From positions 62,001 to 126,000 of the forward strand of contig QBVY01000001.1 of NCBI GenBank assembly GCA_003283765.1: a stretch of DNA of 64,000 bases, given 5' to 3'. Shown here piece by piece: positions 12,603-34,307 of this stretch. This DNA comes from SAR86 cluster bacterium AG-313-N18. Its GTDB lineage: Bacteria > Pseudomonadota > Gammaproteobacteria > Magnimaribacterales > D2472. The position numbers and the translations under genes are program-made. The notes beneath the pieces are model-generated. The model was not told where the DNA came from, did not search any database, and saw only the letters and a program-made list of their open reading frames with translations. Position 1 is the stretch's first letter. The number at the start of each line of letters is the position of its first letter.

Positions 12603-14429
12603 ATGTGTGGAATTATAGGAGCGGCATCATCCCGCAATGTTGGTAAGCTTTTGGTTAAAGGCCTGCACAAGATGGAATATCGAGGCTATGATTCTGCGGG
12701 GATTGCTCTTCATCAAAAAGACAGTATCTTTAACCTAAGAACCTTGGGAAAAGTAAGCTTGCTTGAAGATGGAATGATCGAGCAGCGCCCAAAAAGCAAA
12801 CTCGGTATTGCACACACCCGCTGGGCTACACATGGCAAGCCTTCAGAACAAAATGCACACCCGCACGCATCTAGTGGAGAGGTTCACATTGTTCACAATG
12901 GAATTATAGAGAACTATCTTGAGCTAACTAAAAAATTAACTAAAGAAGGTTATGCGTTTCAGTCAGAAACTGACTCAGAGGTCATAGCCCATTTGCTTCA
13001 TCAACATTTTCAATCCTCCGGTGATTTGCTTACTGCCATGCATGATGCAATCAAGGAGCTTGATGGCGCTTATGCCATAGCAGCCATTCATATTGCTGAT
13101 AAAAGCAGACTCGTTGTCGCAAGAAACAAAAGCCCACTTTTAATTGGAGTTGGTCTGGAGGAAAATTTTGCCGCCTCTGATCCATTGGCTCTTTCTCAGC
13201 TTACCAATGAGTTTGTCTTTTTAGAAGATGGCGATATTGCTGAAATCACCAAGGAAAGCTACCAGGTATTTGATGGCAAGAATTCTCCTGTGACCAGAGA
13301 TATAACAGAAATAGATATAGCAGTTAATGCTGTTACTAAAGGTGAATATTCTCATTTCATGGAAAAAGAAATATATGAACAACCAGTCGCAGTTGCAAAC
13401 ACAATTAATGGCAAGCTTGGGGAAGACGATGTATTAGATAACATATTTGGCTTAGGTTCGTCTGAAGTCTTTAGTAACATTAAAAGGATTCAGTTTGTTG
13501 CCTGTGGAACCAGTTTGCATGCTGGCAAAGTTGGTAGATTTTGGTTTGAGCAAATAGCAAAGATTCCCTGCTATGTCGATTTTGCTAGTGAGTATCGATA
13601 CAGAGAGCCTCTTGTTGAAGAGGGCACTTTGTTTGTAACTATTTCACAATCAGGTGAAACAGCAGATACGTTAGCAGCATTAAGGTATGCACAAGAAAAA
13701 GATTATCTAAGCACTCTATCAATTTGCAATGTGCCAACGAGTTCATTAGCTCGAGAATCTGAGCATGTTCTTTTTACAAATGCAGGGCCAGAGATAGGTG
13801 TTGCTTCAACTAAAGCTTTTACTACGCAGCTTGCTGGGCTCATGCTACTTGCTATGTCTATTGCAAAAAGTTTAGAAGGAGACAAGGACTTAAGAAAAAA
13901 TCTTGCTAACGAATTAAGGTCTTTGCCTGAAGTAATTAGTGAGACATTAAAACTTTCGGAGGATATTTCAAAAATTGTTCCCGCTATTGCTGATAAACAT
14001 AATGCATTATTTTTAGGAAGAGGAATGTTTTTTCCCATCGTGCAGGAGGGTGCATTAAAGTTAAAGGAAATTTCATACATCCATGCTGAGGCTTATCCAG
14101 CAGGAGAGCTAAAACACGGACCATTGGCATTGGTTGATGATCAAATACCAGTCGTGGCACTATCACCCGAAAACACACTTACCGAAAAGCTTGTTTCTAA
14201 TCTAGAGGAGGTTAAAGCTAGAGGTGGAACTTTGTATGTGTTCGGCGGTCCAAATTCTAAAATTAACCTTGAAAGAGGCGCTTATATTCAAATGCCAGAA
14301 TGCAGTGAATTATTGGCTCCAATAATCTATACCATCCCATTACAAATTTTAGCCTATCAAGTGGCCTGTCTAAGAGGTACAGATCTAGATCAACCTAGGA
14401 ACCTAGCCAAGTCAGTCACGGTGGAGTAG
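12603..14429 (+). CDS. glmS: Glutamine--fructose-6-phosphate aminotransferase (isomerizing)
   Basis: MCGIIGA N-terminus; C-terminus DQPRNLAKSVTVE*. Confidence 0.97.
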   Translation: MCGIIGAASSRNVGKLLVKGLHKMEYRGYDSAGIALHQKDSIFNLRTLGKVSLLEDGMIEQRPKSKLGIAHTRWATHGKPSEQNAHPHASSGEVHIVHNGIIENYLELTKKLTKEGYAFQSETDSEVIAHLLHQHFQSSGDLLTAMHDAIKELDGAYAIAAIHIADKSRLVVARNKSPLLIGVGLEENFAASDPLALSQLTNEFVFLEDGDIAEITKESYQVFDGKNSPVTRDITEIDIAVNAVTKGEYSHFMEKEIYEQPVAVANTINGKLGEDDVLDNIFGLGSSEVFSNIKRIQFVACGTSLHAGKVGRFWFEQIAKIPCYVDFASEYRYREPLVEEGTLFVTISQSGETADTLAALRYAQEKDYLSTLSICNVPTSSLARESEHVLFTNAGPEIGVASTKAFTTQLAGLMLLAMSIAKSLEGDKDLRKNLANELRSLPEVISETLKLSEDISKIVPAIADKHNALFLGRGMFFPIVQEGALKLKEISYIHAEAYPAGELKHGPLALVDDQIPVVALSPENTLTEKLVSNLEEVKARGGTLYVFGGPNSKINLERGAYIQMPECSELLAPIIYTIPLQILAYQVACLRGTDLDQPRNLAKSVTVE

Positions 14430-14446
14430 TTTTAAACAGTGAATTA
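14412..14446 (+). repeat. glmS-tail repeat, copy A (native glmS 3' end): tca gtc acg gtg gag tag ttttaaacagtgaatta
   Basis: Related sequences at 16231-16262, 16611-16654 and 17351-17385. Confidence 0.75.
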
Positions 14447-14557
14447 GATCGTCAATCTATCACCCTAGAATTCACTCTTCACTTTCGAACCAACAATTTA
14501 ATTCCTCTTAAGGAACTCACCAAAAGACAAATTGTAATTCATAAACTCATTCAGTTT

Positions 14558-14755
14558 ATGCACAAAGAAGGTATGGGGTATCGAAGAATCTCAGACTTTC
14601 TTAATAGGTCAGGCATCAAAACTCATACAGGCAAAACTTGGTCTAATTCTAAAGTTCATGCCAACCTTAAACGCATGCAAGAAAGACAGGAAAGAATTGC
14701 GTTTAGAAATAAAACCTACCCAAGTCAAATTTTGGAGTTTAGAATTAAAGAATGA
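14558..14755 (+). CDS. Small HTH-like protein resembling part of a recombinase/resolvase domain; the open frame extends upstream without a standard start
   Basis: GMGYRRISDFLNRSGIKTHTGKTWSNSKVHANLKRM pattern; frame open back to about 14429 (...RQSITLEFTLHFRTNNLIPLKELTKRQIVIHKLIQFMHKEG). Confidence 0.45.
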   Translation: MHKEGMGYRRISDFLNRSGIKTHTGKTWSNSKVHANLKRMQERQERIAFRNKTYPSQILEFRIKE

Positions 14756-15246
14756 AAAAAATATTATCAATTTTATTATTTTTAACATCTTGCGCAACTG
14801 TTGATACTTCATTTAAAGAAATCACCGTCCTAAAGTCTCTTCAACAGGGAATGACCATTAAAGATTTTATAACGCTAAATGGACCACCATTTTCAATAGA
14901 GGACAATGAAGATGGAGTGGTTTTTATTTTTTATGAAAGGAGTTTTTGGGCAAGCAGAGCAGATTTTGTTGGGATATATATGGATGTAAAAAAAAATGTT
15001 CTTAAGTTTGATAATCAAGGAATATTTTTAGAAAAATTAGATTCTAATCAACGCAGGGGATATTTCACGATTGTAGGCATGTCAAAAAACTCGGGTTGGA
15101 ATGACGATGGAGGCAAGAGAGCAGAAAAGGAATTTACAATCGTGGGAAGTTTTTTGGCAGAAAAAAGAATATTTTTTAATCAAGAGTCTTGGAAAAAACA
15201 AAATGTGGCAAATAATTACTATTATGAAACAAAAGAGAAAATCTAA
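14752..15246 (+). CDS. Putative lipoprotein of unknown function
   Basis: MKKILSILLFLTSCATVDTS lipobox-like N-terminus. Confidence 0.6.
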   Translation: MKKILSILLFLTSCATVDTSFKEITVLKSLQQGMTIKDFITLNGPPFSIEDNEDGVVFIFYERSFWASRADFVGIYMDVKKNVLKFDNQGIFLEKLDSNQRRGYFTIVGMSKNSGWNDDGGKRAEKEFTIVGSFLAEKRIFFNQESWKKQNVANNYYYETKEKI

Positions 15247-15395
15247 TTCACTGTTTAAACTTAATCAGTGACAGTCGAATGATTTTGCTAGGTTTCTATA
15301 CCTCTGATCCGTATGACGATGAAGGAGTACCGATATTAAGAATTACGGATATACAAAAGAAGTATTCGGCCCTCGACGGCGCACTAGGGAGTTGA

Positions 15396-16202
15396 CGTCT
15401 GTTTAAGCACATTCACATTGTTGCCTGCTCGCCGCGATCCGGTACTACTCTCTTGCACGAGGCGATGGTCACCTGTTTTCGGACAAACAAGCATTATGAC
15501 CATGAGATTCGCTTTCACCTCGTAACCGCAAAAAACAACGATGTGGTTATCACGAAACGACCCAAAGATACGTTGTACATGCCAGGAGTCATCGACGATC
15601 CTAATCTCTATGTCATTTACGTAACGCGCGATCCGCGTGATGTCATCGTTAGCCGGCATGGTAAGAGCGAGGATATGTACTACTCGAACATTAGGCTTTG
15701 GCGTGAATTGCATGCCTGTGCACGCTCATTGTTCGGCCACGATCGTTTTCTCAATATCCGGTACGAGGATTTCGTAAATAACCCTGACGCCACACAAAGC
15801 CAAATCACTGCAAAATTTCCATGGCTTGAGAAACAACACAAATTTTCTGAGTACCATGAACACGCGCAAGTGTCTGAAAAGTCAAAGGTTGCAATGCGTG
15901 GCGTCCGTCCTATTGGACCGACCAGCGTCGGTGTCTGGCAAAAACATCTCGGTCGCATCGTTAAACAGCAGGCAATCCACGGCACAATGACACCAGATCT
16001 GGTCGGTTGTGGATACGAATCATCGCCGGATTGGGAAGTTGTTCTGGACGGCGTTTTACCGGATAAATCTAACAGCTGGTATCCGGAGAAAAAACGTTTT
16101 TGGCAGAGAATTTCGCAATCCATTGATGCTTCGAGAAAAATAGCTATCTATCGGCACAAGAAAGGACTTAGTCGAATCAGCAGAGCAACCAATGATCGTT
16201 AG
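15396..16202 (+). CDS. Sulfotransferase-family protein (frame open from 15396; no ATG/GTG/TTG before 15453)
   Basis: HIVACSPRSGTTLLHE PAPS-binding P-loop lies upstream of the first listed start; VTRDPRDVIVSRHGK motif; higher GC than neighbours. Confidence 0.7.
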   Translation, partial: RLFKHIHIVACSPRSGTTLLHEAMVTCFRTNKHYDHEIRFHLVTAKNNDVVITKRPKDTLYMPGVIDDPNLYVIYVTRDPRDVIVSRHGKSEDMYYSNIRLWRELHACARSLFGHDRFLNIRYEDFVNNPDATQSQITAKFPWLEKQHKFSEYHEHAQVSEKSKVAMRGVRPIGPTSVGVWQKHLGRIVKQQAIHGTMTPDLVGCGYESSPDWEVVLDGVLPDKSNSWYPEKKRFWQRISQSIDASRKIAIYRHKKGLSRISRATNDR

Positions 16203-16230
16203 CCATGCACAAATAGTGGAAAATCAAAAC

Positions 16231-16262
16231 ATTGCTACGGCTACTCTGCTACAGTGGAGTAA
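16231..16262 (+). repeat. glmS-tail repeat, copy B: attgctacggctac tct gct aca gtg gag taa
   Basis: Reads S-A-T-V-E-stop in the glmS tail frame; shares ttgctacgg..actctgctac with copy C. Confidence 0.65.
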
Positions 16263-16263
16263 T

Positions 16264-16551
16264 TTGAAACCACTTGTGGTCGGTCTACTCCTTCTTCTGC
16301 TTGGGATTTACGCATTCTTTGCATTATCTGCAAGGAATGAAATTTTTTACCTGTGTGGAAACTTCAAATCTGGGGTTTCTTATTCAAGTGTCGTAAGACA
16401 ACTCGATACTGCTAATTTGTCGGATTACAAGATTGAAGAAACTGAACAGGGCAAGCGAGTAACATACAGCAGCGTGCTTCACCTAAATTTGGTTCGCTGT
16501 GAGATAACCTTCGCTAAAGACGAAAATGTAAGTCAAGCGATTTATAAGTAA
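16264..16551 (+). CDS. Small single-TM protein (ORF 16192-16551; start more likely TTG 16264)
   Basis: Single hydrophobic segment VVGLLLLLLGIYAFFAL; the longer ORF runs through the repeat. Confidence 0.45.
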   Translation: MKPLVVGLLLLLLGIYAFFALSARNEIFYLCGNFKSGVSYSSVVRQLDTANLSDYKIEETEQGKRVTYSSVLHLNLVRCEITFAKDENVSQAIYK

Positions 16552-16610
16552 CGATCTTCACTCAACTTTTGGGTAGTATAGATAATTACATGGAGAAAAA
16601 ATGTGAAACT

Positions 16611-16654
16611 TTGCTACGGACACTCTGCTACGTGGAGTAGAACAAAACAGTGAA
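16611..16654 (+). repeat. glmS-tail repeat, copy C: ttgctacggacactctgctacgtggagtagaacaaaacagtgaa
   Basis: Close match to copies B and D; one base missing in the T codon relative to the glmS tail. Confidence 0.7.
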
Positions 16655-17015
16655 TAATGTCACAGAGGGGGGATGTTTTTGTGGTTCAGTTCGCTACAGT
16701 TTTGAATCCAACAATTATCCTTCTTCAAATTGCCACTGTTCCATGTGCAGACGCACTTCAGGAGCTCCTTTCGTTTCTTGGATGGCTATTCCAGTAACCA
16801 GCTTTAAATTCAACAAAGGAGAGCCTAAAAAACTAATTTCCTCTGATCATGGAACCAGATACTTTTGTAAAGACTGCGGAACCCCTCTAACCTGTATTCT
16901 TGATGAGCACCCTAAATATGTTTATATCACAATTTGTAGCCTAGATAAGCCACAAGACTTTAAGCCACAAGGAGATATTTATATTGAAGATATGCTTGAT
17001 TGGGTTAAAAGATAA
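16650..17015 (+). CDS. GFA (glutathione-dependent formaldehyde-activating enzyme-like)/CENP-V family protein
   Basis: GGCFCGSVRY...CHCSMCRRTSGAPF...YFCKDCGTPL zinc-binding motifs; GTG start lies in repeat C. Confidence 0.85.
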   Translation: MNNVTEGGCFCGSVRYSFESNNYPSSNCHCSMCRRTSGAPFVSWMAIPVTSFKFNKGEPKKLISSDHGTRYFCKDCGTPLTCILDEHPKYVYITICSLDKPQDFKPQGDIYIEDMLDWVKR

Positions 17016-17302
17016 TGGAAATAAATTGGGTTATTATAGGTTGGCTAATCGACATGACTCTTAACGGTTTTGTGTGGCTTATCATTGCAGCACTTTCTCT
17101 GTTCTTAATTGATATGACTGACACATGGACAAGAAAAGCTATTAGATGGATGGGTATAGCAGATGACTGGATAAGAATATTTATAGAGAACTTATTTGAA
17201 TGGATTCTAAAGAAGAATCTTAAAATAATCTCTAGTATTATATTGTTAATTATCTTTGGTGTTCTTGCTCAACTAGGAATAATACCTAAGCTGATAACTT
17301 AA
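17015..17302 (+). CDS. Small membrane protein
   Basis: Several hydrophobic segments; stop/start overlap with GFA gene. Confidence 0.55.
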   Translation: MEINWVIIGWLIDMTLNGFVWLIIAALSLFLIDMTDTWTRKAIRWMGIADDWIRIFIENLFEWILKKNLKIISSIILLIIFGVLAQLGIIPKLIT

Positions 17303-17350
17303 CATAAATGCACATTCAAAATAAATTGGAGATTAGAGGGCGGGTTTATT

Positions 17351-17385
17351 CCACTCTGTTACCGTGGAGTAGAATAAAACAGTGA
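17351..17385 (+). repeat. glmS-tail repeat, copy D: ccac tct gtt acc gtg gag tag aataaaacagtga
   Basis: Reads S-V-T-V-E-stop, identical at protein level to the glmS C-terminus with synonymous changes. Confidence 0.75.
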
Positions 17386-17549
17386 TTAAGTTTATAAAAG
17401 AATACTCTTACTCTTTTTTGACCCTATCCTTGATTCTCTTTCTTTTTTTTATAAACACCACCGCAGGAAATAGATTAAGTTCTTTTGGTGAAATCATGTG
17501 TGGCGCATTTTTTGATTTTAGATATGCCGAAAAAATTTGCCATGATTAA
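17382..17549 (+). CDS. Small membrane protein (55 aa), below the ORF-track cutoff
   Basis: GTG in repeat D opens MIKFIKEYSYSFLTLSLILFLFFINTTAGNRLSSFGEIMCGAFFDFRYAEKICHD*. Confidence 0.45.
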   Translation: MIKFIKEYSYSFLTLSLILFLFFINTTAGNRLSSFGEIMCGAFFDFRYAEKICHD

Positions 17550-17596
17550 ATACCCACTTTTAAATAAAATATGAAATCATTTATTTATAAATTTTT

Positions 17597-18052
17597 ATGA
17601 AAAAAACAATAATTATAATCCTGTTGTTGAGTCCCCTCTGCAGCTGGGCTCAAGAAAAACTTGATGCCTTTTTAGATGGTCTTCATCAAGATGCACACGA
17701 GGGAAACTTCGAGACCTACTTTGCCCGATACAGCTCTAAGGCTGTTTTTTTAGGGACAGACAAAAAAGAGCGCTGGACAATTGAGGAGTTCAAAGCCTAT
17801 GCTAAACCAGCATTTTCAGATGGCCATGGTTGGACCTATGCAGTGGTCCAGCGTAATTGGGAGGGAGCTGGAAATACACGTTGGTTTGATGAAATTCTTC
17901 TCAATGAAAAACTAGGACATTGTAGGGGGACCGGAGTAGTCCAGCTGATAAACGGTGAATGGAAAATAGCGCACTATGCGTTGACCATGCTTATTCCTAA
18001 TGCCATTGCTGCAGATGTGGGCTATATGACCAAGGAAGTCGAAAAATTATGA
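17597..18052 (+). CDS. Secreted SnoaL-like (NTF2-like) protein
   Basis: Signal peptide MKKTIIIILLLSPLCSWAQ; NTF2-like pattern VQRNWEG..RGTGVVQLINGEWKIAHYALTM. Confidence 0.7.
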   Translation: MKKTIIIILLLSPLCSWAQEKLDAFLDGLHQDAHEGNFETYFARYSSKAVFLGTDKKERWTIEEFKAYAKPAFSDGHGWTYAVVQRNWEGAGNTRWFDEILLNEKLGHCRGTGVVQLINGEWKIAHYALTMLIPNAIAADVGYMTKEVEKL

Positions 18053-18942
18053 AACCTTTAATATTAGATTCAGCTCTAGGAACAGAGCTTGAAAATCGCG
18101 GCGAGTACCTGCCAAGCTTTAAAACGTCCATATGGTCAGCATATTGTTTAATACACAATCCAGAGGTCATCAAACAAATACATATTGATAATATAGAAGC
18201 TGGTGCAGATGTTATTACCACATCAAACTACCAAGCCACTCCTGAATTATTAAAGCGTGAGCCATCCGCTCCACCATATGATGATCTAGCAAAAAGATCG
18301 TTAGAACTATGCAAAGAAGCAGTAATCAAAACTGGAACACAAACTAAGATTGCAGGATGTTATCCCCCAATTCATGTAACTTTCAGACCAGATTTAAGCT
18401 CAAAAGAAAAAAAATTAAGAAAATTCTATGAGACATTGGGTGAAGTTTATAAAAATGAGGTTGATGTAATAATTTGTGAGACCATGGCATCAATCTATGA
18501 GGGCACCATTGCTGCATCAACCGCTAAAAATTTTTCTGATACGGTATGGTTAAGCTGGACAACAAGAAGCAATAAACTTAACAGACTGCCAAGCACTGAG
18601 CTGCTGGATCTTGCAATCAGCGAAGGCTTAAAACTCGATGTTGATTGCCAGATGGTTAATTGTGTTCATGCTGACACTGCAAGTTTGGCAATTGAAAAGC
18701 TTAAAAAAGAAAAAAGTTATGGCATATATGCCAATTCCTCAATTTACAAAAAAAACAAACTTGAAGGTTTTGTTAGCGATTCTGATGAATGGCACTATCA
18801 CAACCATAAGCCCATCACCCCTATTGAGTATAAAGATTTTGTAATGGAGTGGATTGATAATGGCGCCTCAGTCATTGGTGGATGTTGCAGGACTACAACT
18901 GAGCACATTAAAGAAATAAAGAAAATTGTGGATCAGCTATGA
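18049..18942 (+). CDS. Homocysteine S-methyltransferase family protein
   Basis: LDSALGTELENRG; C-terminal GGCCRTTTEHI zinc ligands. Confidence 0.9.
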   Translation: MKPLILDSALGTELENRGEYLPSFKTSIWSAYCLIHNPEVIKQIHIDNIEAGADVITTSNYQATPELLKREPSAPPYDDLAKRSLELCKEAVIKTGTQTKIAGCYPPIHVTFRPDLSSKEKKLRKFYETLGEVYKNEVDVIICETMASIYEGTIAASTAKNFSDTVWLSWTTRSNKLNRLPSTELLDLAISEGLKLDVDCQMVNCVHADTASLAIEKLKKEKSYGIYANSSIYKKNKLEGFVSDSDEWHYHNHKPITPIEYKDFVMEWIDNGASVIGGCCRTTTEHIKEIKKIVDQL

Positions 18943-19304
18943 ATTGGTATTTAATTTCAGGAGCAATCATTTCTTTAGTTGGAATGTTATTTCATGGAGT
19001 AGCAGGGCAAAAAATATATATGGGCAATATTTATAAAAGTGAAATGGAGGAATTAACCAAATCTTTAAGTTTGGTTTCTTGGCATATTTTTACCATCTTC
19101 CTTTTTGTCAGCGCCTTAACTTTATTTTTTATAGCCTATAGCCCAGAACTTGTCATGGCCGCTTATCCAATTATTGGAGTTAATCTTTTAGGCTCTCTGC
19201 TATTTATTTTCCTTGGACTGGGAAAGCACAAGGCTTTATTAAAAATGCCAGGAGCATACTTGATGGGAAGTACCGCTCTATTTGCCTGGTTAGGTATTTT
19301 ATAG
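18939..19304 (+). CDS. Small membrane protein
   Basis: Four hydrophobic segments; overlap with upstream stop. Confidence 0.55.
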   Translation: MNWYLISGAIISLVGMLFHGVAGQKIYMGNIYKSEMEELTKSLSLVSWHIFTIFLFVSALTLFFIAYSPELVMAAYPIIGVNLLGSLLFIFLGLGKHKALLKMPGAYLMGSTALFAWLGIL

Positions 19305-19331
19305 ATCTTCAATCTTTCAATAGGCTGGTAG

Positions 19332-19805
19332 ATGAAAAATCTAAATATTGTTTCCTTTAATAAAAAATATAAAGCAGATTTTGAAAAACTTAATCGCGAA
19401 TGGATTGAGGAATTTTTTCAAATGGAAGATGAAGATTTTTATACACTACAAAACCCTGAGTCTTATGTAATAGAAAAGAATGGTGAAATTTTTTTTGCTC
19501 TATATGATCAAGAAGTAATAGGAACAGCGGCAATGATACGTTTTTCGGATGGTATATTTGAGCTGGCAAAAATGTCAGTAATGAAAAGCTATCAAGGAAG
19601 GGGAGTTGGCAAATTATTATTAAAAAGATGTATTCAGTTTGCTCAAGAAAGACAGGCAGATGAAATTTTTCTTTTAACCAATGATGTTTTAAAGCCCGCC
19701 CTTAATCTTTATTTATCTTGCGGATTTAAAATAAGAGATAAGTATGATGATGAAAGATACAAAAGAGGGAATACTAAAATGACTTTAATTTTGAAAGATC
19801 AATAA
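19332..19805 (+). CDS. GNAT family N-acetyltransferase
   Basis: ELAKMSVMKSYQGRGVGKLLLKRCIQFA acetyl-CoA motif. Confidence 0.85.
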   Translation: MKNLNIVSFNKKYKADFEKLNREWIEEFFQMEDEDFYTLQNPESYVIEKNGEIFFALYDQEVIGTAAMIRFSDGIFELAKMSVMKSYQGRGVGKLLLKRCIQFAQERQADEIFLLTNDVLKPALNLYLSCGFKIRDKYDDERYKRGNTKMTLILKDQ

Positions 19806-19808
19806 TAT

Positions 19809-20342
19809 ATGAAAGAGTTCAAGAATTTAATTGTGTTAGGACCGCTAATATATGCACTGCATCATTTTGAGGAGCACGTAATTTTTAATTTCAGGGACTG
19901 GCGTCTTGCCTACTTTGCTGATAATAATCCTATTTCTACAGAAGAGGTGCTCATCAGACTTATAGCGCTTCTTTTAATTTTTATTTTTGTTCATTTGATT
20001 AAAAACAATAGAGGTAGCGCCCACATAGTCTTGTTTTTTCTAATGACAACCCAAGTGGTGAATGCATTTTTTCATATATTTTTCAGCTTCTACTTTTATG
20101 ACTTTAGCCCTGGAGCCATCACTGCAGTATTGCTATATTTGCCTATTAATTTCTTAATTATTAGGTCTGCATTCCAAGAGGGGTTTATAGGCAGCTATCT
20201 TGAGTTATGCCTGCTTTTTGTTGCAGGCATCACCACTTTTGCTTTGTTTGAATTAATTGGGCCACAAGTTATCGCTTACAGCGTTTTGCTAACGCCAATT
20301 TATTACATCATGATGAATAGGGTGGAATCAGTAAAAAATTAA
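19809..20342 (+). CDS. HXXEE domain-like membrane protein
   Basis: ALHHFEEH motif plus hydrophobic segments. Confidence 0.65.
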   Translation: MKEFKNLIVLGPLIYALHHFEEHVIFNFRDWRLAYFADNNPISTEEVLIRLIALLLIFIFVHLIKNNRGSAHIVLFFLMTTQVVNAFFHIFFSFYFYDFSPGAITAVLLYLPINFLIIRSAFQEGFIGSYLELCLLFVAGITTFALFELIGPQVIAYSVLLTPIYYIMMNRVESVKN

Positions 20343-20572
20343 GGCAGCTTAAAAAGCTCCTCAACACTACAATCTAATGTTTTGGCTATCTTTAATGCTA
20401 AAACAGTCGAGGGTACATAAACACCGTTTTCAATTGCATTAATGCTTTTCCTAGAAACCTCAGCGCTTTCAGATAGATCTTGTTGAGTTAAGCCAGCAGC
20501 TTTTCTGAGCTCCTCTAAATTATTTAAAAGTTTTTCATGACTCTTACCCACTTTTTGATTCCCGGTAGTCAC
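20339..20572 (-). CDS. XRE-family HTH transcriptional regulator
   Basis: LRKAAGLTQQDLSESAEVSRKSINAIENGVYVPSTVLALKIAKTL. Confidence 0.85.
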   Translation of the reverse strand: MTTGNQKVGKSHEKLLNNLEELRKAAGLTQQDLSESAEVSRKSINAIENGVYVPSTVLALKIAKTLDCSVEELFKLP

Positions 20573-21074
20573 CTACAGAAAACCAAACCAAGAGCACGCC
20601 AAAAATAAGCCATGCGAAAGCTGCTATTTGATAAATCATGTTGTTAGCTAATTCGTAGCTCCAATTAGACCAATCTTGAATTGAGAATAGTACAAAAACA
20701 CCAACTCCATTTATAAAATATCCAACTGCAGCAGTTTTGTAATATCTAAGGGCAGTATATTCATCATACAAAACATTATTCTTTTGCTGATCACCAAAAT
20801 AATAGGATGCAGTTAAATAGCCAGATACCAAGAAAACCAAAATACCAGGCGCAAACATTATATTATTGCTAGTAATATGCCAGCCTAAGTCTGCTCCAGA
20901 TAATTCAAGCAACAAATAGCCTGCAAAAAATATTTGGAAAAGACCAGAAATAAAAACCAATATAAATCTTTTTAGGTGCGTTACCTCCCAGTTAACTTTT
21001 CCCGAAAGAATCACCCATGCAAAAGCTGTTACCCCAAGAGTTGCAATTAACCAAATATAGAAATTAATATCCAT
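20544..21074 (-). CDS. Multi-TM membrane protein
   Basis: Hydrophobic segments; overlaps XRE gene in apparent operon. Confidence 0.55.
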   Translation of the reverse strand: MDINFYIWLIATLGVTAFAWVILSGKVNWEVTHLKRFILVFISGLFQIFFAGYLLLELSGADLGWHITSNNIMFAPGILVFLVSGYLTASYYFGDQQKNNVLYDEYTALRYYKTAAVGYFINGVGVFVLFSIQDWSNWSYELANNMIYQIAAFAWLIFGVLLVWFSVGDYRESKSG

Positions 21075-21481
21075 TATTTCTTCTCAAACGAATCTACAGC
21101 TTTGTTAATTTCGCTGCTTTCATTTGGGTAAATGTATCCTGCAATTAAAGAGCCAACGCCAATGGTGCCTACTAAAGCGCCAACTCCCATTAAGATATTA
21201 GGCCCAGTTATGCTCCCAAAAAGAAATAAACCAAAACCTACAAACATAGCTATCACACCATTTCTTCTATAGTCAATTGGCTTTTTTTTATCTTTAAAAT
21301 TTTCTAATAAATCTTCAACATCAGAAGGATTTTCTAAGTTTTTAGAAATAGAAACCATAGCCGCATATTTGTCTTTGTCTGATTTAGTGCTGTAGTAAAA
21401 GATCACCCATACTAATAATACAGGCATTAATATTGCCACCCAACCAGTACCAACAGCCATCACGCTAGTAAATTCATCCAC
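21074..21481 (-). CDS. Membrane protein (DUF6249-like topology, not verified)
   Basis: N-terminal TM and two C-terminal TMs; start/stop overlap with next gene. Confidence 0.5.
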   Translation of the reverse strand: MDEFTSVMAVGTGWVAILMPVLLVWVIFYYSTKSDKDKYAAMVSISKNLENPSDVEDLLENFKDKKKPIDYRRNGVIAMFVGFGLFLFGSITGPNILMGVGALVGTIGVGSLIAGYIYPNESSEINKAVDSFEKK

Positions 21482-21618
21482 TATTTTCTCCTTTAAAAAA
21501 TGTAACGCAAAGGTATCATTAATATTTTGAGAAGTAAAGGTTACATTTAAAAAAAATAAAAGAACTTTCAGATTGGTAATTAGTGAGAAATGAAATAATT
21601 GCTAATTTAGTTTATATT

Positions 21619-21669
21619 ATGCCTATGTGTGATTGCTGTAGCTGCTGTAACTGCGATTGTTGCTCATAA
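21619..21669 (+). CDS. Cys-rich mini-ORF MPMCDCCSCCNCDCCS*, possible leader or metal-binding peptide
   Basis: atg cct atg tgt gat tgc tgt agc tgc tgt aac tgc gat tgt tgc tca taa: 8 Cys in 16 codons; ORF track omits it by length. Confidence 0.5.
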   Translation: MPMCDCCSCCNCDCCS

Positions 21670-21678
21670 GCAACGATT
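21655..21678 (+). promoter_or_regulatory. Hairpin overlapping the 3' end of the Cys-rich mini-ORF (GTTGCT-cata-AGCAAC, extendable with G-U pairs)
   Basis: Perfect 6-bp stem at 21659-21674, extendable to 10 bp with two wobbles; followed by aaagttttcttta. Confidence 0.5.
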
Positions 21679-21735
21679 AAAGTTTTCTTTATACTTTCTG
21701 TTTAACGGTTTTCGTATTTCTATATCAAAAATAAA

Positions 21736-22533
21736 ATGCTAATAAAGCAAATACCCATTCGAAACGACTTAAAAAATTACATGTACCTAATGGCATGTGA
21801 AAAAACATCTGAGGCTATAGCCATAGACCCATTGGATTATGCCTTATGCCTTGAGACGGCAAAGGAAATGGGGTGGAAAATAACCATCGTTGCTAATACC
21901 CATCATCATCATGATCATATTGGTGGCAATGGCCCGGTGATTGCTGCGACAGGCGCTGAGTTGGTTTCTCATAAAGATGCAATGGATGCCATACCCAACG
22001 TTAACAGGGGTTTAATGGCTGGAGATGAATTGCAGTGCGGCGACTTTATTTTAAATGTGCTGGACACACCAGGACATACGATGAGCCACATCTGTTTATA
22101 TTTTCAAGGGAGTGCAGATGAGCAGCCTGCATTATTTTGTGGAGATACATTGTTTAATGCAGGAGTAGGCAGGTGTGATTTTGGTGGCGAGCCTAAAATT
22201 CTCCATAAGACTTTTGAGGATCATATTTTCCCACTTTCTGATGATGTTAGGATTTTCCCAGGCCATGATTATATTGAAAATAATTTAGAGTTTACTCTTG
22301 ATCGTGAGCCTGACAATAAGACTGCACTTTCTCTGCGAGACAAATTTAAAAATGGCTTGGATGCAGAAAGTTTTGTTAGTGATATTGGTCTAGAGCGCCA
22401 AATCAATGTTTTCTTTAGACTGAATGAAAATCAGGTTAGGGCAGGGCTCGCATTAAGCCTTGATCTGGATGTGGCAAGTTTAGATAACCAAAAAACCTTT
22501 ATTGGTCTGCGTAAATTAAGGGATACTTGGTAG
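21736..22533 (+). CDS. gloB: Hydroxyacylglutathione hydrolase (glyoxalase II)
   Basis: NTHHHHDHIGGN metallo-beta-lactamase motif; FCGDTLFNAGVGR; FPGHDY. Confidence 0.92.
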   Translation: MLIKQIPIRNDLKNYMYLMACEKTSEAIAIDPLDYALCLETAKEMGWKITIVANTHHHHDHIGGNGPVIAATGAELVSHKDAMDAIPNVNRGLMAGDELQCGDFILNVLDTPGHTMSHICLYFQGSADEQPALFCGDTLFNAGVGRCDFGGEPKILHKTFEDHIFPLSDDVRIFPGHDYIENNLEFTLDREPDNKTALSLRDKFKNGLDAESFVSDIGLERQINVFFRLNENQVRAGLALSLDLDVASLDNQKTFIGLRKLRDTW

Positions 22534-22578
22534 GAACTAAGACTCCACTTGACGAGTATGCTTTAATGGTTGCAGTAA

Positions 22579-23010
22579 ATGAATTTGTTCAATAGAATCA
22601 AAACCTCAAATGATATGAATACACAAGTAAACGCAGATAAGGCATCAATTACATTGTCATTGGCATGCATGATTCATTGCCTTTTAATGCCCTCATTCTT
22701 AGTTTTGACTTCTGGTTTCTTTGCTCTATCGATAGACAACGAGCTTATTCATAAAACGTTTCTAATAATAGTGCTCCCGGTCAGTTTGTATGCTTTGATC
22801 TCGGGGTATAGAAATCACAAGATTCTTTCATATTTTTATTTAGGTACATCGGGTTTATGGATTCTTGTCTTTGCAGTTTTTTTTGGAGAGGGTGTGCTTG
22901 GAGAGTTTGCTGAGAAGTCCTTAACTTTGCTAGGTTCAATAATAGTTGCCTCTTCGCATTACAAAAATTATAAAGCATGCAAAGAACTTGATTGCTCATG
23001 CCATGAGTGA
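22579..23010 (+). CDS. MerC domain-containing membrane protein
   Basis: SLACMIHCLLMP MerC-like Cys motif with TM segments; terminal CKELDCSCHE. Confidence 0.75.
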   Translation: MNLFNRIKTSNDMNTQVNADKASITLSLACMIHCLLMPSFLVLTSGFFALSIDNELIHKTFLIIVLPVSLYALISGYRNHKILSYFYLGTSGLWILVFAVFFGEGVLGEFAEKSLTLLGSIIVASSHYKNYKACKELDCSCHE

Positions 23011-23552
23011 TGGCAAAGATCACTTTAAGAAAGTTTCATAGATACATTAGTCTGCTTATAGCAATTCAACTACTTTTGTGGACTATCTCAGGAATTTATT
23101 TTTCTTTCAATAAAATAGAAAATGTTCGCGGTGAACAATATCGTGTTACTACAAAAGAAGTCTCCATAGTTGATAGTCCTAAATTAGAGAAGTTAGATTT
23201 TGAATCTGCAATGCAGATCATAGAAGAAAGAACAATTCTTCAGCCGCAAACTATAGAAATTGTTGAAGACCCGCAAAGAGGCTCAGAATATCGAGGACGA
23301 AAATTACCTTTGTACAAAGTTGTTTCCCTTTCCAACGAGGGTAAAGAAATCAATATTTATCAAGATCCATTTTCTGGTGAAATCGTCGCCATTAGATCGG
23401 CTCAGTGGAGAGTCTGGGATTTGATGTGGGGACTGCATATTATGGATTGGGTAGATAGAGATAATATTGATAATATGTTGTTAAAAATTTTTTCATTTAT
23501 TGCTTTATTTACCTCTATTTCAGGGGTTATATTGTTTTTTAAAAAATCATGA
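23007..23552 (+). CDS. PepSY-associated TM-like membrane protein
   Basis: N-terminal KFHRYISLLIAIQLLLWTISGIYFSF and C-terminal TM. Confidence 0.65.
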   Translation: MMAKITLRKFHRYISLLIAIQLLLWTISGIYFSFNKIENVRGEQYRVTTKEVSIVDSPKLEKLDFESAMQIIEERTILQPQTIEIVEDPQRGSEYRGRKLPLYKVVSLSNEGKEINIYQDPFSGEIVAIRSAQWRVWDLMWGLHIMDWVDRDNIDNMLLKIFSFIALFTSISGVILFFKKS

Positions 23553-24634
23553 AATTTCTTTTTTTATTATTAGCCTGCTTTTCAATTGGTCTTTTTGCAC
23601 AAGAAGAAGACTCAATGCATGATCATTCCAAAATGGAAAAAATGAGCTCAAAACATCATTCTATGCGCCATATATCAACTCCAATTGGGATTATGGGAAG
23701 CATGCATCACAAGGGGTTTATGCTTTCCATTAAATATGGATTTATGAAGATGAATGGCAACATATTAGATGGAAAGAATATCAGCAATTCAAAGATTTTA
23801 GAGATGCCTAATCCATTGGGTAATATGCCAGCAAACCTTTCAGTGATTCCCCAGAACATGGATATGAAGATGACAATGATAGATGCCATGTATGCCCCCT
23901 CAAATAATTTAACATTTATGGTCATGGCCACCTATGCCTCTAGAGACATGAAGCTCAATACTTACTCTCCAATGATGAGCAGAGGACTCATAGGTCAATT
24001 CAACACCTCTTCAAGCGATCTATCTGATATTTCTCTCAGCACATTGTTTAAGATTGCCCAAACTAAACATTCAAAATGGCATGGAGAGATTTCCTTTAAA
24101 AAATCCATTGGCAAAGATAATTCAATGGCGCAAGCATTGACGCCAATGGACATGAAAATGAACATGATCATGCCTTATGCTATGCAGCCTGGGGATGATT
24201 CCTCCAGCTTAGTTTTAGGTCTAACTAATACCAGAGAGTTAAAAGAAGGCATGATTTGGGGCACTCAACTTAAAAGAAAGATGGTTGTATCTAAGTCTAG
24301 CTGGTCTTTTGGTGACCAAACCGAGCTTAGTTCATGGATACAGTATCCATTTTCAAAACAGGTATCCATTTCTTCTAGACTAAAGTTTATTGATCAAGAT
24401 GTTTTATCTGGAAGCAACGCATTAATCATGGCGCCTGTTCAAACAGCAAACCCAAAAAATTATGGAGGCACAGAAATATTCTTTGGTTTAGGTATGAATA
24501 TTAACCTTGACGTTCTTCCTGGTGGCAATGACAGCATCGGTATTGAAATACTTAAACCTGTAAATCAAAACAAGAATAACCTTCAAATGAAGACAGATTA
24601 TCAAGTCATTATTGGCTATCAAAAAAGCTTTTAA
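23549..24634 (+). CDS. Met/His-rich exported (predicted outer-membrane-like) protein, probably metal-associated
   Basis: Signal peptide, MHDHSKMEKMSSKHHSMRH and many Met residues; beta-strand-like pattern. Confidence 0.6.
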   Translation: MKFLFLLLACFSIGLFAQEEDSMHDHSKMEKMSSKHHSMRHISTPIGIMGSMHHKGFMLSIKYGFMKMNGNILDGKNISNSKILEMPNPLGNMPANLSVIPQNMDMKMTMIDAMYAPSNNLTFMVMATYASRDMKLNTYSPMMSRGLIGQFNTSSSDLSDISLSTLFKIAQTKHSKWHGEISFKKSIGKDNSMAQALTPMDMKMNMIMPYAMQPGDDSSSLVLGLTNTRELKEGMIWGTQLKRKMVVSKSSWSFGDQTELSSWIQYPFSKQVSISSRLKFIDQDVLSGSNALIMAPVQTANPKNYGGTEIFFGLGMNINLDVLPGGNDSIGIEILKPVNQNKNNLQMKTDYQVIIGYQKSF

Positions 24635-24641
24635 TTAAAGA

Positions 24642-25259
24642 ATGCAAAAAGCAATTAATGTATTTGGGGCCTGGGCAGAGCAAGGCAAAGACATTGGCAT
24701 GGAAAAAGGTCACGCTGCTGCGGTCAATGAGATGCTTGATTTTGCAATTCAGGAAAGAGAGAGCTTTAATAAAAATTTTACATTTTTAGACTTAGGTTGT
24801 GGCAATGGTTGGGTGGTAAGAAAGGTTGCTGAAAATTCCACATGTAGCGATGCTTATGGCATTGATGGAGCCACTCAAATGATCGCCAATGCAAAAAAGC
24901 GAGCAGGTGATGAGAAGTATATTCTTGCTAATATTGATGAACATGAACCCACCCAAAAGTATGATCTCATTCATTCTATGGAGGTGCTTTATTATCTAGA
25001 AGACCCGACTTCAATACTGAATAAAATAGCCAACTCTTGGCTTAATGAGGGAGGAAGATTTATCGCTGGCATAGATTTGTACTATGAAAATACTGATTCT
25101 CACTCCTGGGAAGAAAAAGTAGGGACCAAAATGTTGATGTTTAAAGAAGCAGAGTGGGCTGATTTTTTCAAGCAAGCAGGTTTTAATGATGTGACAAGCT
25201 GGCGCGCCAACCAATCTGAAGACTGGGCAGGAACCTTAGTTTTAACTGGAAAAAAATAG
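24642..25259 (+). CDS. Class I SAM-dependent methyltransferase
   Basis: FLDLGCGNGWVVRKVA. Confidence 0.85.
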   Translation: MQKAINVFGAWAEQGKDIGMEKGHAAAVNEMLDFAIQERESFNKNFTFLDLGCGNGWVVRKVAENSTCSDAYGIDGATQMIANAKKRAGDEKYILANIDEHEPTQKYDLIHSMEVLYYLEDPTSILNKIANSWLNEGGRFIAGIDLYYENTDSHSWEEKVGTKMLMFKEAEWADFFKQAGFNDVTSWRANQSEDWAGTLVLTGKK

Positions 25260-25268
25260 CTATATAAA

Positions 25269-26111
25269 ATGTTTAACAAATTAGATCATCTTATTGTTGC
25301 GGTTAAAGACTTGCAGGAAGCTGAAAATAATTACCAAAAATTATTTGGCATGGCGCCTGTTTGGAGTGGCACACACAAAGAATTAGGTACAAGCAACTCC
25401 TTGTTTAATTTCCAAAATACTTATTTTGAGTTACTGGCTCCTACCAGCGAGGGCTTGGGTGCTGATCTTGTAAATTATAACTTAAATACTACTGGCGAAG
25501 GTTTGATTGGCATGGTCTTTGCCACAGAGGATATTGCTGGCGTCCATAGCTCTCTTCAAGAGAGGAAGTTCCTCATAGGGGATACTTCGGATGGGGAGGG
25601 CATCAATTCTTCTGATCAGAAGGTTAGAAAATGGAAAAATTTATTTCTTCCTCCTGAGCTAACTAGAGGCATCTTTTCATTTGTGATCGAGCACACCGAG
25701 GGAAGTCTCCCTCAACCCAAAAGTGTAGAGCCGTCATCACCTCACAAATTAGATCATGTGGTAATTAATACCAATGACGCAGACGGCTTCATAGAAATTT
25801 ATAAAGATATTTTTAACATTCGTCTTGCCCTCGATAAAACCATTGAGCATTGGCAAAAAAGAATGCTCTTTTTTAGACTGAACGAAACCACCATAGAAGT
25901 TATAGAGCAAGAAGATGATTTACCGCCTAGCGATAAGATGTGGGGGCTGGCTTGGGATGTAAAAGACATAAAAAAGGCTCATCAGCGACTTTCAAATGAG
26001 GGGATTGAAGTAACGCCAATCCAAAAAGGCGTGAAGGAAAAAACTTTGGTTGCTACTGTAAAATCTCATACCCAAAACGTACCCACGCTTCTTATTCAGC
26101 ATTTAAACTAA
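25269..26111 (+). CDS. VOC (glyoxalase-like) family protein
   Basis: Two repeated modules beginning KLDHLIVAV... and KLDHVVINT... Confidence 0.8.
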   Translation: MFNKLDHLIVAVKDLQEAENNYQKLFGMAPVWSGTHKELGTSNSLFNFQNTYFELLAPTSEGLGADLVNYNLNTTGEGLIGMVFATEDIAGVHSSLQERKFLIGDTSDGEGINSSDQKVRKWKNLFLPPELTRGIFSFVIEHTEGSLPQPKSVEPSSPHKLDHVVINTNDADGFIEIYKDIFNIRLALDKTIEHWQKRMLFFRLNETTIEVIEQEDDLPPSDKMWGLAWDVKDIKKAHQRLSNEGIEVTPIQKGVKEKTLVATVKSHTQNVPTLLIQHLN

Positions 26112-26116
26112 ATACC

Positions 26117-26479
26117 ATGGTTGAAATAATCTTATACACCTTACTTTTATATTTTTTGCAGCTATTCCTTCCGGTAACACTTAAGCGAAAAATGACAGAA
26201 GAGATGTTTCTCAGATCAAGGCGCGCAACTGAAAATTTAAAAGAGTCATTGCCAGCATTCCTAGCACTAGGAATACTTTCAATTATCCTCGATGTTCAGG
26301 CAAACACTATGGCCGCATTTTTCTGGCTTTTTTTTAGAGTCATTTTTGCAGTAATTTATATTTCAGGTTTTAACTTAAAGCCTGCCAATGAATCTGGGCA
26401 TCAAGCTCAACCTTTAAGAAGTCTTGTTTGGACTTTTTCCGTTGTTGCTTTATTTATTATGGGCACTAATTTTATTTGA
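26117..26479 (+). CDS. MAPEG family membrane protein
   Basis: RATENLKESLPAFLALGIL MAPEG-like motif, TM segments. Confidence 0.75.
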   Translation: MVEIILYTLLLYFLQLFLPVTLKRKMTEEMFLRSRRATENLKESLPAFLALGILSIILDVQANTMAAFFWLFFRVIFAVIYISGFNLKPANESGHQAQPLRSLVWTFSVVALFIMGTNFI

Positions 26480-26491
26480 TAAAATCTATTC

Positions 26492-27766
26492 TTGATGAAA
26501 AAAATAATTCTCTCGCTATACATATGCACATTCCCATTTTTTGTGAGCTTGCTTGCAGCTACAAATATTAGTGAAGCTACCGTTCATTCAGAAAAAATTG
26601 TTTTAGGTTCAGGTTGTTTTTGGGGAGCTGAAAAGGGTTATGAATCTTTGCCTGGGGTTATCGATGCTGTTTCTGGTTATGCCGATGGAAAAGGTGTTCG
26701 AGCCACATATAGGGAAATTACAAAACTTAAAAATAAGTTTAATGCTAATAATCATGCTGAGGTAGTAGAGGTCACTTACAACAAAAACCTCATCTCTACC
26801 GAGGCACTGTTAATGCATTATTTTGAATCACATGACCCCACTCAGCTAAATCGTCAGGGAAATGACATTGGCACCCAATACAGATCCATTATTTTGTATT
26901 CAACAGAAGAACAAAAAGAAACAGTTGATGAGGTTCTTGCAACCTTTCAAGAGCTTTTATCAACTGCAGGCTATGGCTCTATCACAACCTTAGTTAAACC
27001 GATTAAAAATTTTTATAAGGCAGAAAAATATCACCAGGACTACATAGCAAAAAATCCAAATGGATATTGTCCCGATCATTCTACGGGTGTTAAGTTTGCT
27101 GAAAAAGAAGCTATTCAAATTGTTGATAATTCAGATCTCCTTTCAGGAAAGCATATTATCGTGATTGAAGCAGAGGGCTATTGCCCATATTGTGACAAAT
27201 TTAGAGCCGACGTTGTAAATAACTATTATGGCAATATTCCACTAGTATTTAGGCTGGCATCTCAGCTACAAGGTTTAGCTATCAATTCACCAACTTGGGC
27301 TACTCCAACTATTTTATTTTTAGAAAATGGAAAAGAGGCCTTTGGTTATCAGGGCTATCTAAGCCCCAAAGAATTTTATGAGGCTCTTGGCTACTTTAAG
27401 CTTGGAGACTCAGAAGCATACAAAGTTGCCTTTCAGCAGGGGACAGATGCAAGGTTTTGTAAAGAATATGAAATTTTTAAAAATACTCCTGATGGTATTT
27501 TTATTGATAAATTGAGTGGCGCTCCTTTATTTGATACTAAAGATAGATTTAATTCTTCCACAGGTTGGCTTTCATTTACAGCCCCGATTAAGGGCTCAGT
27601 TTATACAAAGCCTGATAATAGTTACGGAATGCGAAGGACAGAAATAAGATCGGTCACTTCAGATATTCATTTGGGGCATGTTTTTCCAGATGGTCCAAAC
27701 GGCATGCCGAGATACTGTATTAATGCTACCGTGCTGGACTTTAAGCCCAGAGACGACCTAAGTTAG
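26492..27766 (+). CDS. Exported MsrA - thioredoxin-like - MsrB fusion protein
   Basis: MsrA GSGCFWGAEKGYE; central EAEGYCPYCDKFRADV; MsrB GHVFPDGPNGMPRYCINATVLDF; N-terminal signal. Confidence 0.85.
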   Translation: MMKKIILSLYICTFPFFVSLLAATNISEATVHSEKIVLGSGCFWGAEKGYESLPGVIDAVSGYADGKGVRATYREITKLKNKFNANNHAEVVEVTYNKNLISTEALLMHYFESHDPTQLNRQGNDIGTQYRSIILYSTEEQKETVDEVLATFQELLSTAGYGSITTLVKPIKNFYKAEKYHQDYIAKNPNGYCPDHSTGVKFAEKEAIQIVDNSDLLSGKHIIVIEAEGYCPYCDKFRADVVNNYYGNIPLVFRLASQLQGLAINSPTWATPTILFLENGKEAFGYQGYLSPKEFYEALGYFKLGDSEAYKVAFQQGTDARFCKEYEIFKNTPDGIFIDKLSGAPLFDTKDRFNSSTGWLSFTAPIKGSVYTKPDNSYGMRRTEIRSVTSDIHLGHVFPDGPNGMPRYCINATVLDFKPRDDLS

Positions 27767-27778
27767 TTTAAATAATAT

Positions 27779-27806
27779 TTGCAAAATAACTATCTAGCAT
27801 TACAAT
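27779..27806 (+). promoter_or_regulatory. Sigma70-like promoter upstream of the riboswitch (TTGCAA - 16 bp - TACAAT)
   Basis: Read directly; position just upstream of riboswitch candidate. Confidence 0.45.
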
Positions 27807-27810
27807 ATGT

Positions 27811-27865
27811 TTAATCGTGATTTGATCCTATTGCCGCGATTAAAAAGAAAGTGCTAAAACGGAAA
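27811..27865 (+). ncRNA. SAM-II/SAM-V-like riboswitch
   Basis: AAUCG(27813-27817)/CGAUU(27837-27841) stem enclosing UGAUUUGAUCCUAUUGCCG, then AAAAAGAAAGUGCUAAAACGGAA; resembles SAM-II core UGAUUUAACCGUAUUGC...GCUAAAAAGG; precedes BHMT-like gene. Confidence 0.75.
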
Positions 27866-27887
27866 TTATTCCCAGGATTTAAATAAA

Positions 27888-27927
27888 AACTCAATTGTTG
27901 TGTTGTTCACAATTATTTTTGAGTGAA
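27888..27927 (+). promoter_or_regulatory. Hairpin between riboswitch and BHMT start (ACTCAATTGT ... ACAATT attttt GAGT)
   Basis: AATTGT/ACAATT and ACTCA/TGAGT complementary arms. Confidence 0.4.
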
Positions 27928-27944
27928 TTTTGAGGTATAAAAAT

Positions 27945-29003
27945 ATGAAAAGACAATTAATAGAAAGGTTAGATGCAGGCCCAGTCATTTGTGCAGAGGG
28001 TTTTTTATTTGAGGTAGAAAAAAGAGGCTATTTAGCTTCGGGTGAGTTTGTCCCAATGGTTGCATTAGAGCATCCAGAGGCTTTAGAAAATCTACATAAA
28101 GACTTTCAACATGCAGGATCTGACATTGTTCAGGCTTTTACTTATAACGGACATAGAGAGAAGATGAGAGTGATCAATAAAGAAGAGCTCTTAGAGCCTC
28201 TAAATAGAGCTGCACTCAAGATAGCAAAAAAAGTTGCGGACAACCCCATTGGTGGAGGAGAGCCTAACTTAATGTCAGGCAATATTTCAAATTCAAATAT
28301 TTGGGAGCAGGATGATAAGGGTTCTCAACTTGAAGTAGAAAGGATGTTCAATGAAATGGTTGAATGGGCTGTAGATGAGGGAGCTGATTTAATTATGGGC
28401 GAAACTTTTTATTATGCTGAAGAAGCATATAAAGCGCTTGAAATTATCCAAAAGTCAGGATTGCCTGCAGTTATTAATATTGCTCCAATGGGAGAAAATA
28501 TTATGCGAGATGGCGTATCAATAGTTGATACTTGCAAAGAGCTCGAACAAAGAGGCGCCGACGTTGTTGGAATGAATTGCTTCAGAGGCCCAGCCACCAT
28601 GCTGCCTTATTTAAAAGAAATCAGAGAAGCGATTAGTTGTCATATGGCCGCTTTACCACTTCCATTTAGAACAACCGAAGAACACCCAACTTTCTTTAAC
28701 TTGCCTGATAATAATGGCTGCACATGCCATGCACCGCATGGAAGAACATTTCCAACAGCCCTCGATCCGCTTTATTGTAATAGGTATGAGATGCGCACTT
28801 TTTTTGAAGAGGTGAATAAAATTGGAATTAAATTACTTGGTGTTTGTTGTGGAGCAACACCCATGCATCAAAGAGAGGTAGCTGAAGCGGTAGGGCTAAC
28901 TGTTCCTGCAAGTAAATACAGAGAAAAAATGGAAAACCATTTTATGTATGGCACTAACGAGAGAACTGCAAAACATATGCAAGATTATGGAGATAATGCC
29001 TAG
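27945..29003 (+). CDS. Betaine-homocysteine S-methyltransferase-like protein
   Basis: LDAGPVICAEGFLFEVEKRGYL; GMNCFRGP; GVCCGATPMHQREVAEAVG zinc site; ATG at 27945 (track start 27930 is TTG). Confidence 0.88.
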   Translation: MKRQLIERLDAGPVICAEGFLFEVEKRGYLASGEFVPMVALEHPEALENLHKDFQHAGSDIVQAFTYNGHREKMRVINKEELLEPLNRAALKIAKKVADNPIGGGEPNLMSGNISNSNIWEQDDKGSQLEVERMFNEMVEWAVDEGADLIMGETFYYAEEAYKALEIIQKSGLPAVINIAPMGENIMRDGVSIVDTCKELEQRGADVVGMNCFRGPATMLPYLKEIREAISCHMAALPLPFRTTEEHPTFFNLPDNNGCTCHAPHGRTFPTALDPLYCNRYEMRTFFEEVNKIGIKLLGVCCGATPMHQREVAEAVGLTVPASKYREKMENHFMYGTNERTAKHMQDYGDNA

Positions 29004-29071
29004 TACCTCATCTAAAAAAATGTGCTAAATGACTAAAATCATATTAACCTATCCCTTTTGTAGGTAATATT

Positions 29072-29917
29072 TTGACTGATCTGAGTGTAAATGAGGTTTA
29101 CGCAATTGGTGCGCCGATTGTGTTGGCTATGATTTTTGCTGAGCTGTTAATTTCTAACTGGCAAAGCAAAAAATATTACAAGAAACAAGATACCCTTTGT
29201 ACCATTGGTTTGCTCGCAGGGAATATCATCGTAGCCTTTTCCATTAAAGGTTTAATTTTAGCTTTTCACTTCTATTTATATCAATTTAAGGTTCTCGAGC
29301 TTGCTAGCATTTTACCTTTGTGGGCAATGTGGGCTTTAACCTTCATCATGATTGACCTTGTCTTTTATATTTATCATCGAATGTCACATAGGGTTAGATT
29401 TCTTTGGGCTATTCATCTTAGCCATCACTCAAGTGAAGAAATGAATTTTGCAGTTTCCTTTAGACAGGCATGGTTTGGCCCTGTCTCTAAAATACCTTTT
29501 TTTATGGCGCTTCCTCTGCTTGGGTTTGATCCAACAATCATTGCAGTAGCAGGCGTGATGAGCACTTTGTGGGGAATAGTGGGGCATACACAAATTGTGG
29601 GGAAGCTTGGTTTTATTGAATGGGTTTTTAATACCCCATCACACCATAGAGTACATCATGGATCTAATAAGCAATACATAGATAAAAATTATGGAAACCT
29701 ATTAATAATTTGGGACAGAATGTTTGGAACGTTTGAACCAGAAGAAGAGCCCGTGAAATTTGGCTTGGTCAATAATGTAAATACCTATAATCCAACAAAG
29801 ATAACATTTATGGCCTGGTCATCAATGATTGATGACATTAAGAATAAAAATAATTTTAGTGAGGTGTTAAGCACAATCATTGGGCCGCCTAGTACCCACG
29901 TAAGAAATAAAATCTAG
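29072..29917 (+). CDS. Fatty acid hydroxylase/sterol desaturase family membrane protein
   Basis: Histidine motifs HRMSH, HLSHHS, HHRVHH. Confidence 0.88.
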   Translation: MTDLSVNEVYAIGAPIVLAMIFAELLISNWQSKKYYKKQDTLCTIGLLAGNIIVAFSIKGLILAFHFYLYQFKVLELASILPLWAMWALTFIMIDLVFYIYHRMSHRVRFLWAIHLSHHSSEEMNFAVSFRQAWFGPVSKIPFFMALPLLGFDPTIIAVAGVMSTLWGIVGHTQIVGKLGFIEWVFNTPSHHRVHHGSNKQYIDKNYGNLLIIWDRMFGTFEPEEEPVKFGLVNNVNTYNPTKITFMAWSSMIDDIKNKNNFSEVLSTIIGPPSTHVRNKI

Positions 29918-29977
29918 GCCATCTGCCCATAAAAGACTTTTTGACTTTTTATGCTAGGGGGTTATATTTTTACAACT

Positions 29978-30457: not shown

Positions 30458-30458
30458 A

Positions 30459-30905: not shown

Positions 30906-30918
30906 TATTACTCATAAA

Positions 30919-31377: not shown

Positions 31378-31417
31378 TGCTTTGCTGTAGAATTAAATTT
31401 TTTATTGGAGTTAACAT

Positions 31418-31897: not shown

Positions 31898-31914
31898 TTG
31901 CTGAATAAGAATAT

Positions 31915-34245: not shown

Positions 34246-34307
34246 CATTTAATTTTTAAAAGCGCTCTTTATGGCATAAAATGCACGACTGATTTAAGAG
34301 AGAGCAA

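Follow-up and report, generated by a model that had tools for sequence, protein, structure and literature searches.

A probably leaderless micro-gene for a cysteine-rich peptide in SAR86 bacteria

The locus and its genomic address

The window, that is, the whole 64,000-nt stretch of SAR86 DNA that was analysed, contains a micro-gene rich in Cys codons, which is conserved both in the window's genus and across the order. The features needed for its interpretation are as follows.

12603–14429, + strand: glmS, a fixed upstream landmark for the variable island in which the micro-gene lies
19809–20342, + strand: HXXEE-motif membrane protein, a frequent island companion (PF13787 in a homologue)
21578–21607, no strand assigned: possible operator, a weak imperfect dyad (AATTAG...CTAATT) with its centre some 32 bp 5′ of the ATG
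21607–21612, + strand: TTAGTT element directly 5′ of the −10 box, drawn from base frequencies in 69 unique upstream sequences
21613–21618, + strand: −10 box TATATT, ending 6 nt before the ATG, with the start of transcription expected at or next to the A of the ATG
21625–21669, + strand: Cys-rich micro-gene encoding MCDCCSCCNCDCCS, 14 codons and a stop codon
21655–21678, + strand: hairpin formed by the last three codons, the stop codon and 9 nt beyond, followed by a T-rich stretch; in the window's genus only
21736–22533, + strand: divergent GloB-like metallo-beta-lactamase with an HAGH_C domain (PF00753, PF16123), the gene after the micro-gene in the window's genus
22579–23010, + strand: MerC-family protein (PF03203), a frequent island companion

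The letters of the window agree with the mini-ORF as it was read in the initial annotation, which started it at the first of two ATG codons and placed it in a span of 21601–21735. This span does contain the ORF, but it also takes in the promoter and the spacer to gloB, and the conserved start is the second ATG (21625), because no relatives but the nearest retain the ATG CCT before it; the second ATG is the start common to all genus copies. The Cys-codon pattern occurs once in the window, and 0.01 matches with up to three mismatches would be expected in shuffled sequence. Peptides of this type, exemplified by MCDCCSCCNCDCCS and MCDCCDCCECSCCSK, are 14–19 aa long and follow the pattern MCxCCxCCxCxCCxK, so that more than half of the codons of a gene of about 15 codons specify Cys. 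Eight Cys within 14–19 aa were found in 36 distinct peptides, which thus have the many Cys in CxC and CC clusters by which metallothioneins are recognized.

The micro-gene is part of the accessory gene pool of a variable island that follows glmS. It lies 1.2–18.0 kb downstream of glmS and on the same strand in all 53 genomes in which both are on one contig; in the window, the interval runs from the end of glmS at 14429 to the micro-gene start at 21625. A specific link to a MerC/PepSY/Met-rich operon, as the initial annotation had suggested, is weakened by the composition of this island. MerC was found within 3 kb of the micro-gene in at least 30 of 58 genomes, and genes for MerC, PepSY and His/Met-rich proteins are often found beside it in the island, but other island genes are likewise near: the HXXEE gene, which is unrelated, keeps even closer company with the micro-gene, lying no more than 3 kb away in all 28 genomes with both on one contig, and the fixed place of the micro-gene is the post-glmS island itself. 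The neighbourhood therefore hints at metals without proving a partner.

The island, at 14430–34300 in the window and at the matching loci, extends from glmS to apparently conserved genes near 34300 (psd/pssA-like by eye) and consists of small accessory genes, which mainly share the strand of glmS and are reshuffled between SAR86 genomes; no mobility gene was noticed in it. The HXXEE gene is present in 39 of 204 SAR86 genomes, 30 of which also have the micro-gene. A His/Met-rich protein encoded at 23549–24634, after the MerC and PepSY genes, has no Pfam match and is possibly copper-related, and a recurrent minus-strand island cluster at 20339–21481 comprises an HTH regulator with DUF6249 and membrane genes.

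Distribution across SAR86 and selection on the peptide

Eighteen genomes of the window's genus carry the downstream gloB-like gene, and the mini-ORF occupies the same place in 15 of them; this set was collected via gloB, not via the mini-ORF, and is an unbiased sample. Across the order, the micro-gene was found in 74 of 204 genomes, in three of four families and nearly always as a single copy. Because only about a third of the genomes have a copy (16 of the 40 most complete), the micro-gene is not essential. When 85,462 species genomes were scanned for exact matches to an ATG followed by the eight-Cys pattern, 81 loci were found, of which 10 are artefacts formed by simple or poly-Cys repeats, and the other 71 lie in SAR86 or marine gammaproteobacterial records and encode peptides fitting the same family. 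When promoter and pattern were searched together with up to three mismatches, the micro-gene was the sole thing matched in SAR86, no relatives of it were found in 365 other Gammaproteobacteria, and a search of phages gave no meaningful match. The Cys-rich peptide gene has so far been seen only in SAR86, and a literature search found no paper joining SAR86 with metallothionein or SAR86 with leaderless.

A query limited to the promoter and Cys codons one to three matched 71 places, 69 of which are the micro-gene ORF, and the later five Cys are therefore conserved without search bias. The exception among the 69 is a copy with a premature stop (G128), which, like G099 and G051, is a decayed copy.

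To count substitutions, 58 distinct ORFs were joined in a minimum spanning tree. Cys codons underwent 34 synonymous and 3 non-synonymous changes, where 17% synonymous would be expected (p about 2e-23), and the other codons 25 synonymous and 39 non-synonymous changes (39% synonymous versus 22% expected, p 0.0015). The Cys-codon counts carry some search bias, of which the genus set and the search with the promoter and three Cys codons are free. Among the 13 distinct sequences of the genus, none of the 16 first and second Cys-codon positions varies, whereas 3 of the 8 third positions do; the flanking DNA in this set differs by 25–50% between pairs. The non-Cys residues are also patterned, with D/E at codon 3 in 52 of 56, E at codon 9 in 42 of 56 and K at codon 15 in 44 of 56, and the consensus under selection is MC(D/E)CCxCCxCxCC(S/A)K with all eight Cys kept. 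Because Cys codons change almost only synonymously and the non-Cys positions are patterned, the substitution record indicates that the reading frame is selected as a peptide. The comparison of relatives that the initial annotation had named as its check, namely whether the ORF is conserved or its frame broken, thus favours a real coding ORF.

Promoter, stop-codon hairpin and downstream gene

At least five of six matches to TATAAT at −12 to −7 were found in 64 of 69 distinct upstream sequences, compared with 40 of 736 neighbouring gene starts (p about 1e-60), and the adjoining TTAGTT element has conserved bases at −17 (T), −15 (G) and −14 (T) in the 69 unique upstream sequences. In sigma-70 promoters, a −10 box at such a position puts the start of transcription at or next to the A of the ATG. 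Because the transcript is predicted to start there, it would have no room for a Shine-Dalgarno site, and the position of the promoter indicates that the mRNA is very probably leaderless; in the 64 cases the start codon would lie at the 5′ end of the mRNA, as in leaderless poly-Cys attenuators. Farther upstream, dyad symmetry peaks at −32/−32.5 (z 3.5 in 46 upstream sequences outside the genus, the 95% level of shuffled maxima being 3.2; z 2.9 near −32 within the genus), and this dyad may be an operator that controls expression. In ordinary neighbouring genes (loci L054–L133) the −10 box is about two to four times commoner at the leaderless offset than at other offsets, a hint that leaderless genes are no rarity in SAR86.

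The hairpin described in the initial annotation is present, with 10 pairs and a T-rich tail, but it does not rise above chance and does not extend outside the genus. Chance alone would give one such terminator-like site in a region of this size, and the folding of the region itself is not unusual (z −0.55 and −1.14). In the 13 genus sequences, 93% of cells pair, and the one two-sided change is not beyond column shuffles (43/500); the stem is mostly kept but is broken in one sequence (L011), and the T-run is lost in 4 of the 13. Terminator-like hairpins follow the micro-gene at 5 of 69 loci order-wide and control gene ends in 14 of 750 cases, so that the conserved intrinsic terminator expected of an attenuator was not found after the ORF in the order, nor was its T-run kept in the genus. 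Inspection by eye outside the genus found no shared stop-codon hairpin, and an Rfam search of the window matched no family.

The next gene after the micro-gene belongs to 31 families across the order and is gloB in the window's genus alone; at 4 loci it lies on the opposite strand, and it is on the same strand and within 120 nt at 50 of 65 loci, against a local background of 487 of 662 (74%). Because the downstream genes vary and the leader-like arrangement is not in excess, the micro-gene is not a general leader of gloB, and the Cys-responsive gloB leader proposed in the initial annotation is rejected as a general role. The GloB-like protein scores 179 bits against TIGR03413, under the cut-off of 200.8; this divergent form is found at high identity in the window's genus alone, and another family contains one relative at 49%.

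A Cys-responsive leader, in which ribosome pausing on the Cys codons during a shortage of Cys-tRNA would determine the state of the hairpin and thereby read-through into the next gene, is unlikely for the family as a whole and is a rival mainly for the genus with gloB. There, gloB lies at a constant 63–71 nt downstream and the hairpin overlaps the last codons, and use of the hairpin as a genus-specific terminator or attenuator is possible, because this spacing is constant and the stem is largely preserved. In architecture, the closest published parallel, as far as the accounts in PMC9094748 and PMC13236596 go, would be the leaderless poly-Cys sORFs of mycobacteria, which are described there as Cys-responsive attenuators before the operons that they control (Canestrari 2020); both kinds of ORF are leaderless, very short and Cys-rich and have their own promoter. 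SAR86, moreover, is reported to be unable to assimilate sulphate, to lack cysK in most cases and perhaps to draw its cysteine from glutathione (PMC11582366); it probably depends on external cysteine or glutathione, and since eight Cys per peptide are costly under such conditions, the peptide would also suit a Cys sensor. In contrast to the mycobacterial sORFs as described in those accounts, however, the SAR86 micro-gene has a next gene that changes by lineage and sometimes lies on the other strand, its non-Cys residues are conserved, and its conserved place before a controlled operon is limited to the gloB genus. The resemblance to classical leader-peptide attenuators, that is, a hairpin with a T-rich tail overlapping the end of a Cys-rich ORF, is likewise found in the window's genus, whereas hairpin and T-run are not conserved family-wide. 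A counter of Cys codons would also leave the conserved D/E and K residues unexplained.

Possible function of the peptide

Two further alternatives dispense with a peptide altogether. A DNA or RNA element with an incidental frame, such as a recombination site of the island or a small RNA, would agree with the single copy per genome, the fixed island address and the changing neighbours, but it is very improbable and largely refuted by the synonymous pattern, because the substitutions obey the codon table; the confinement of the stop-codon hairpin to the genus and the Rfam result also speak against it. A chance ORF, for which the small size is the sole argument, is refuted by order-wide conservation together with promoter and frame, and can practically be dismissed. 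A trans-acting peptide that is not a metal ligand deserves more weight, although it too is rather unlikely: it might serve as a thiol or sulphur store, as a redox or persulphide buffer, or as the precursor of a modified peptide. The sequence evidence shows only selection for eight Cys and polar spacers, and the host probably scavenges reduced sulphur. A sulphur store, however, would not need a fixed Cys spacing, the inconstant neighbours imply that there is no dedicated modification enzyme, and the peptide is without the leader segment usual in modified peptides.

The preferred explanation, to which a probability of roughly 0.55 is assigned, is that the micro-gene is a free-standing, leaderless SAR86 gene for a trans-acting thiolate peptide that probably binds metal. 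Of the two roles initially considered for the locus, a small metallothionein-like peptide thus fits better than a general gloB leader. The micro-gene has its own promoter, perhaps governed by the dyad near −32, its start codon lies where transcription is predicted to begin, and selection keeps a peptide with eight Cys; the ribosome would start directly on the 5′ AUG, and the peptide, with its thiols set among acidic and small residues, would act in trans in the cytoplasm. Such a peptide could bind soft metal ions (Cu(I), Zn, Cd or Hg) as a thiolate ligand of minimal size, and would then resemble a phytochelatin specified by a gene or a metallothionein of very small length. The metal function is an inference, and it is tempered by the fact that common membership of the island accounts, at least in part, for the metal-related genes near the micro-gene.

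Like metallothioneins and phytochelatins, the SAR86 peptide is short and dense in Cys with CxC and CC motifs, and its acidic residues alternate with Cys as in phytochelatins. It differs from both in having only 14–19 aa, about half or more of them Cys; phytochelatin is made by an enzyme from glutathione, whereas the SAR86 peptide would be ribosomal, and no sequence relation to metallothioneins is expected at such a length. With somewhat less than an even chance, this leaderless SAR86 gene of about 15 codons, located in the post-glmS accessory island of three of the four families, may specify a phytochelatin analogue made by ribosomes, in which case no smaller conserved system of the metallothionein type would be known in bacteria.

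In the surface ocean, SAR86 ranks with the most abundant bacteria, and a conserved gene of about 15 codons is too short for ordinary gene callers. If the explanation is true, the micro-gene would give organisms reportedly unable to assimilate sulphate a new and minimal means of thiol-metal (or thiol) handling, and it would be a clean natural case of leaderless translation of a micro-gene. The motif formed by the −10 box, 6 nt, the ATG and the Cys pattern is specific enough for direct surveys of metagenomes and metatranscriptomes.
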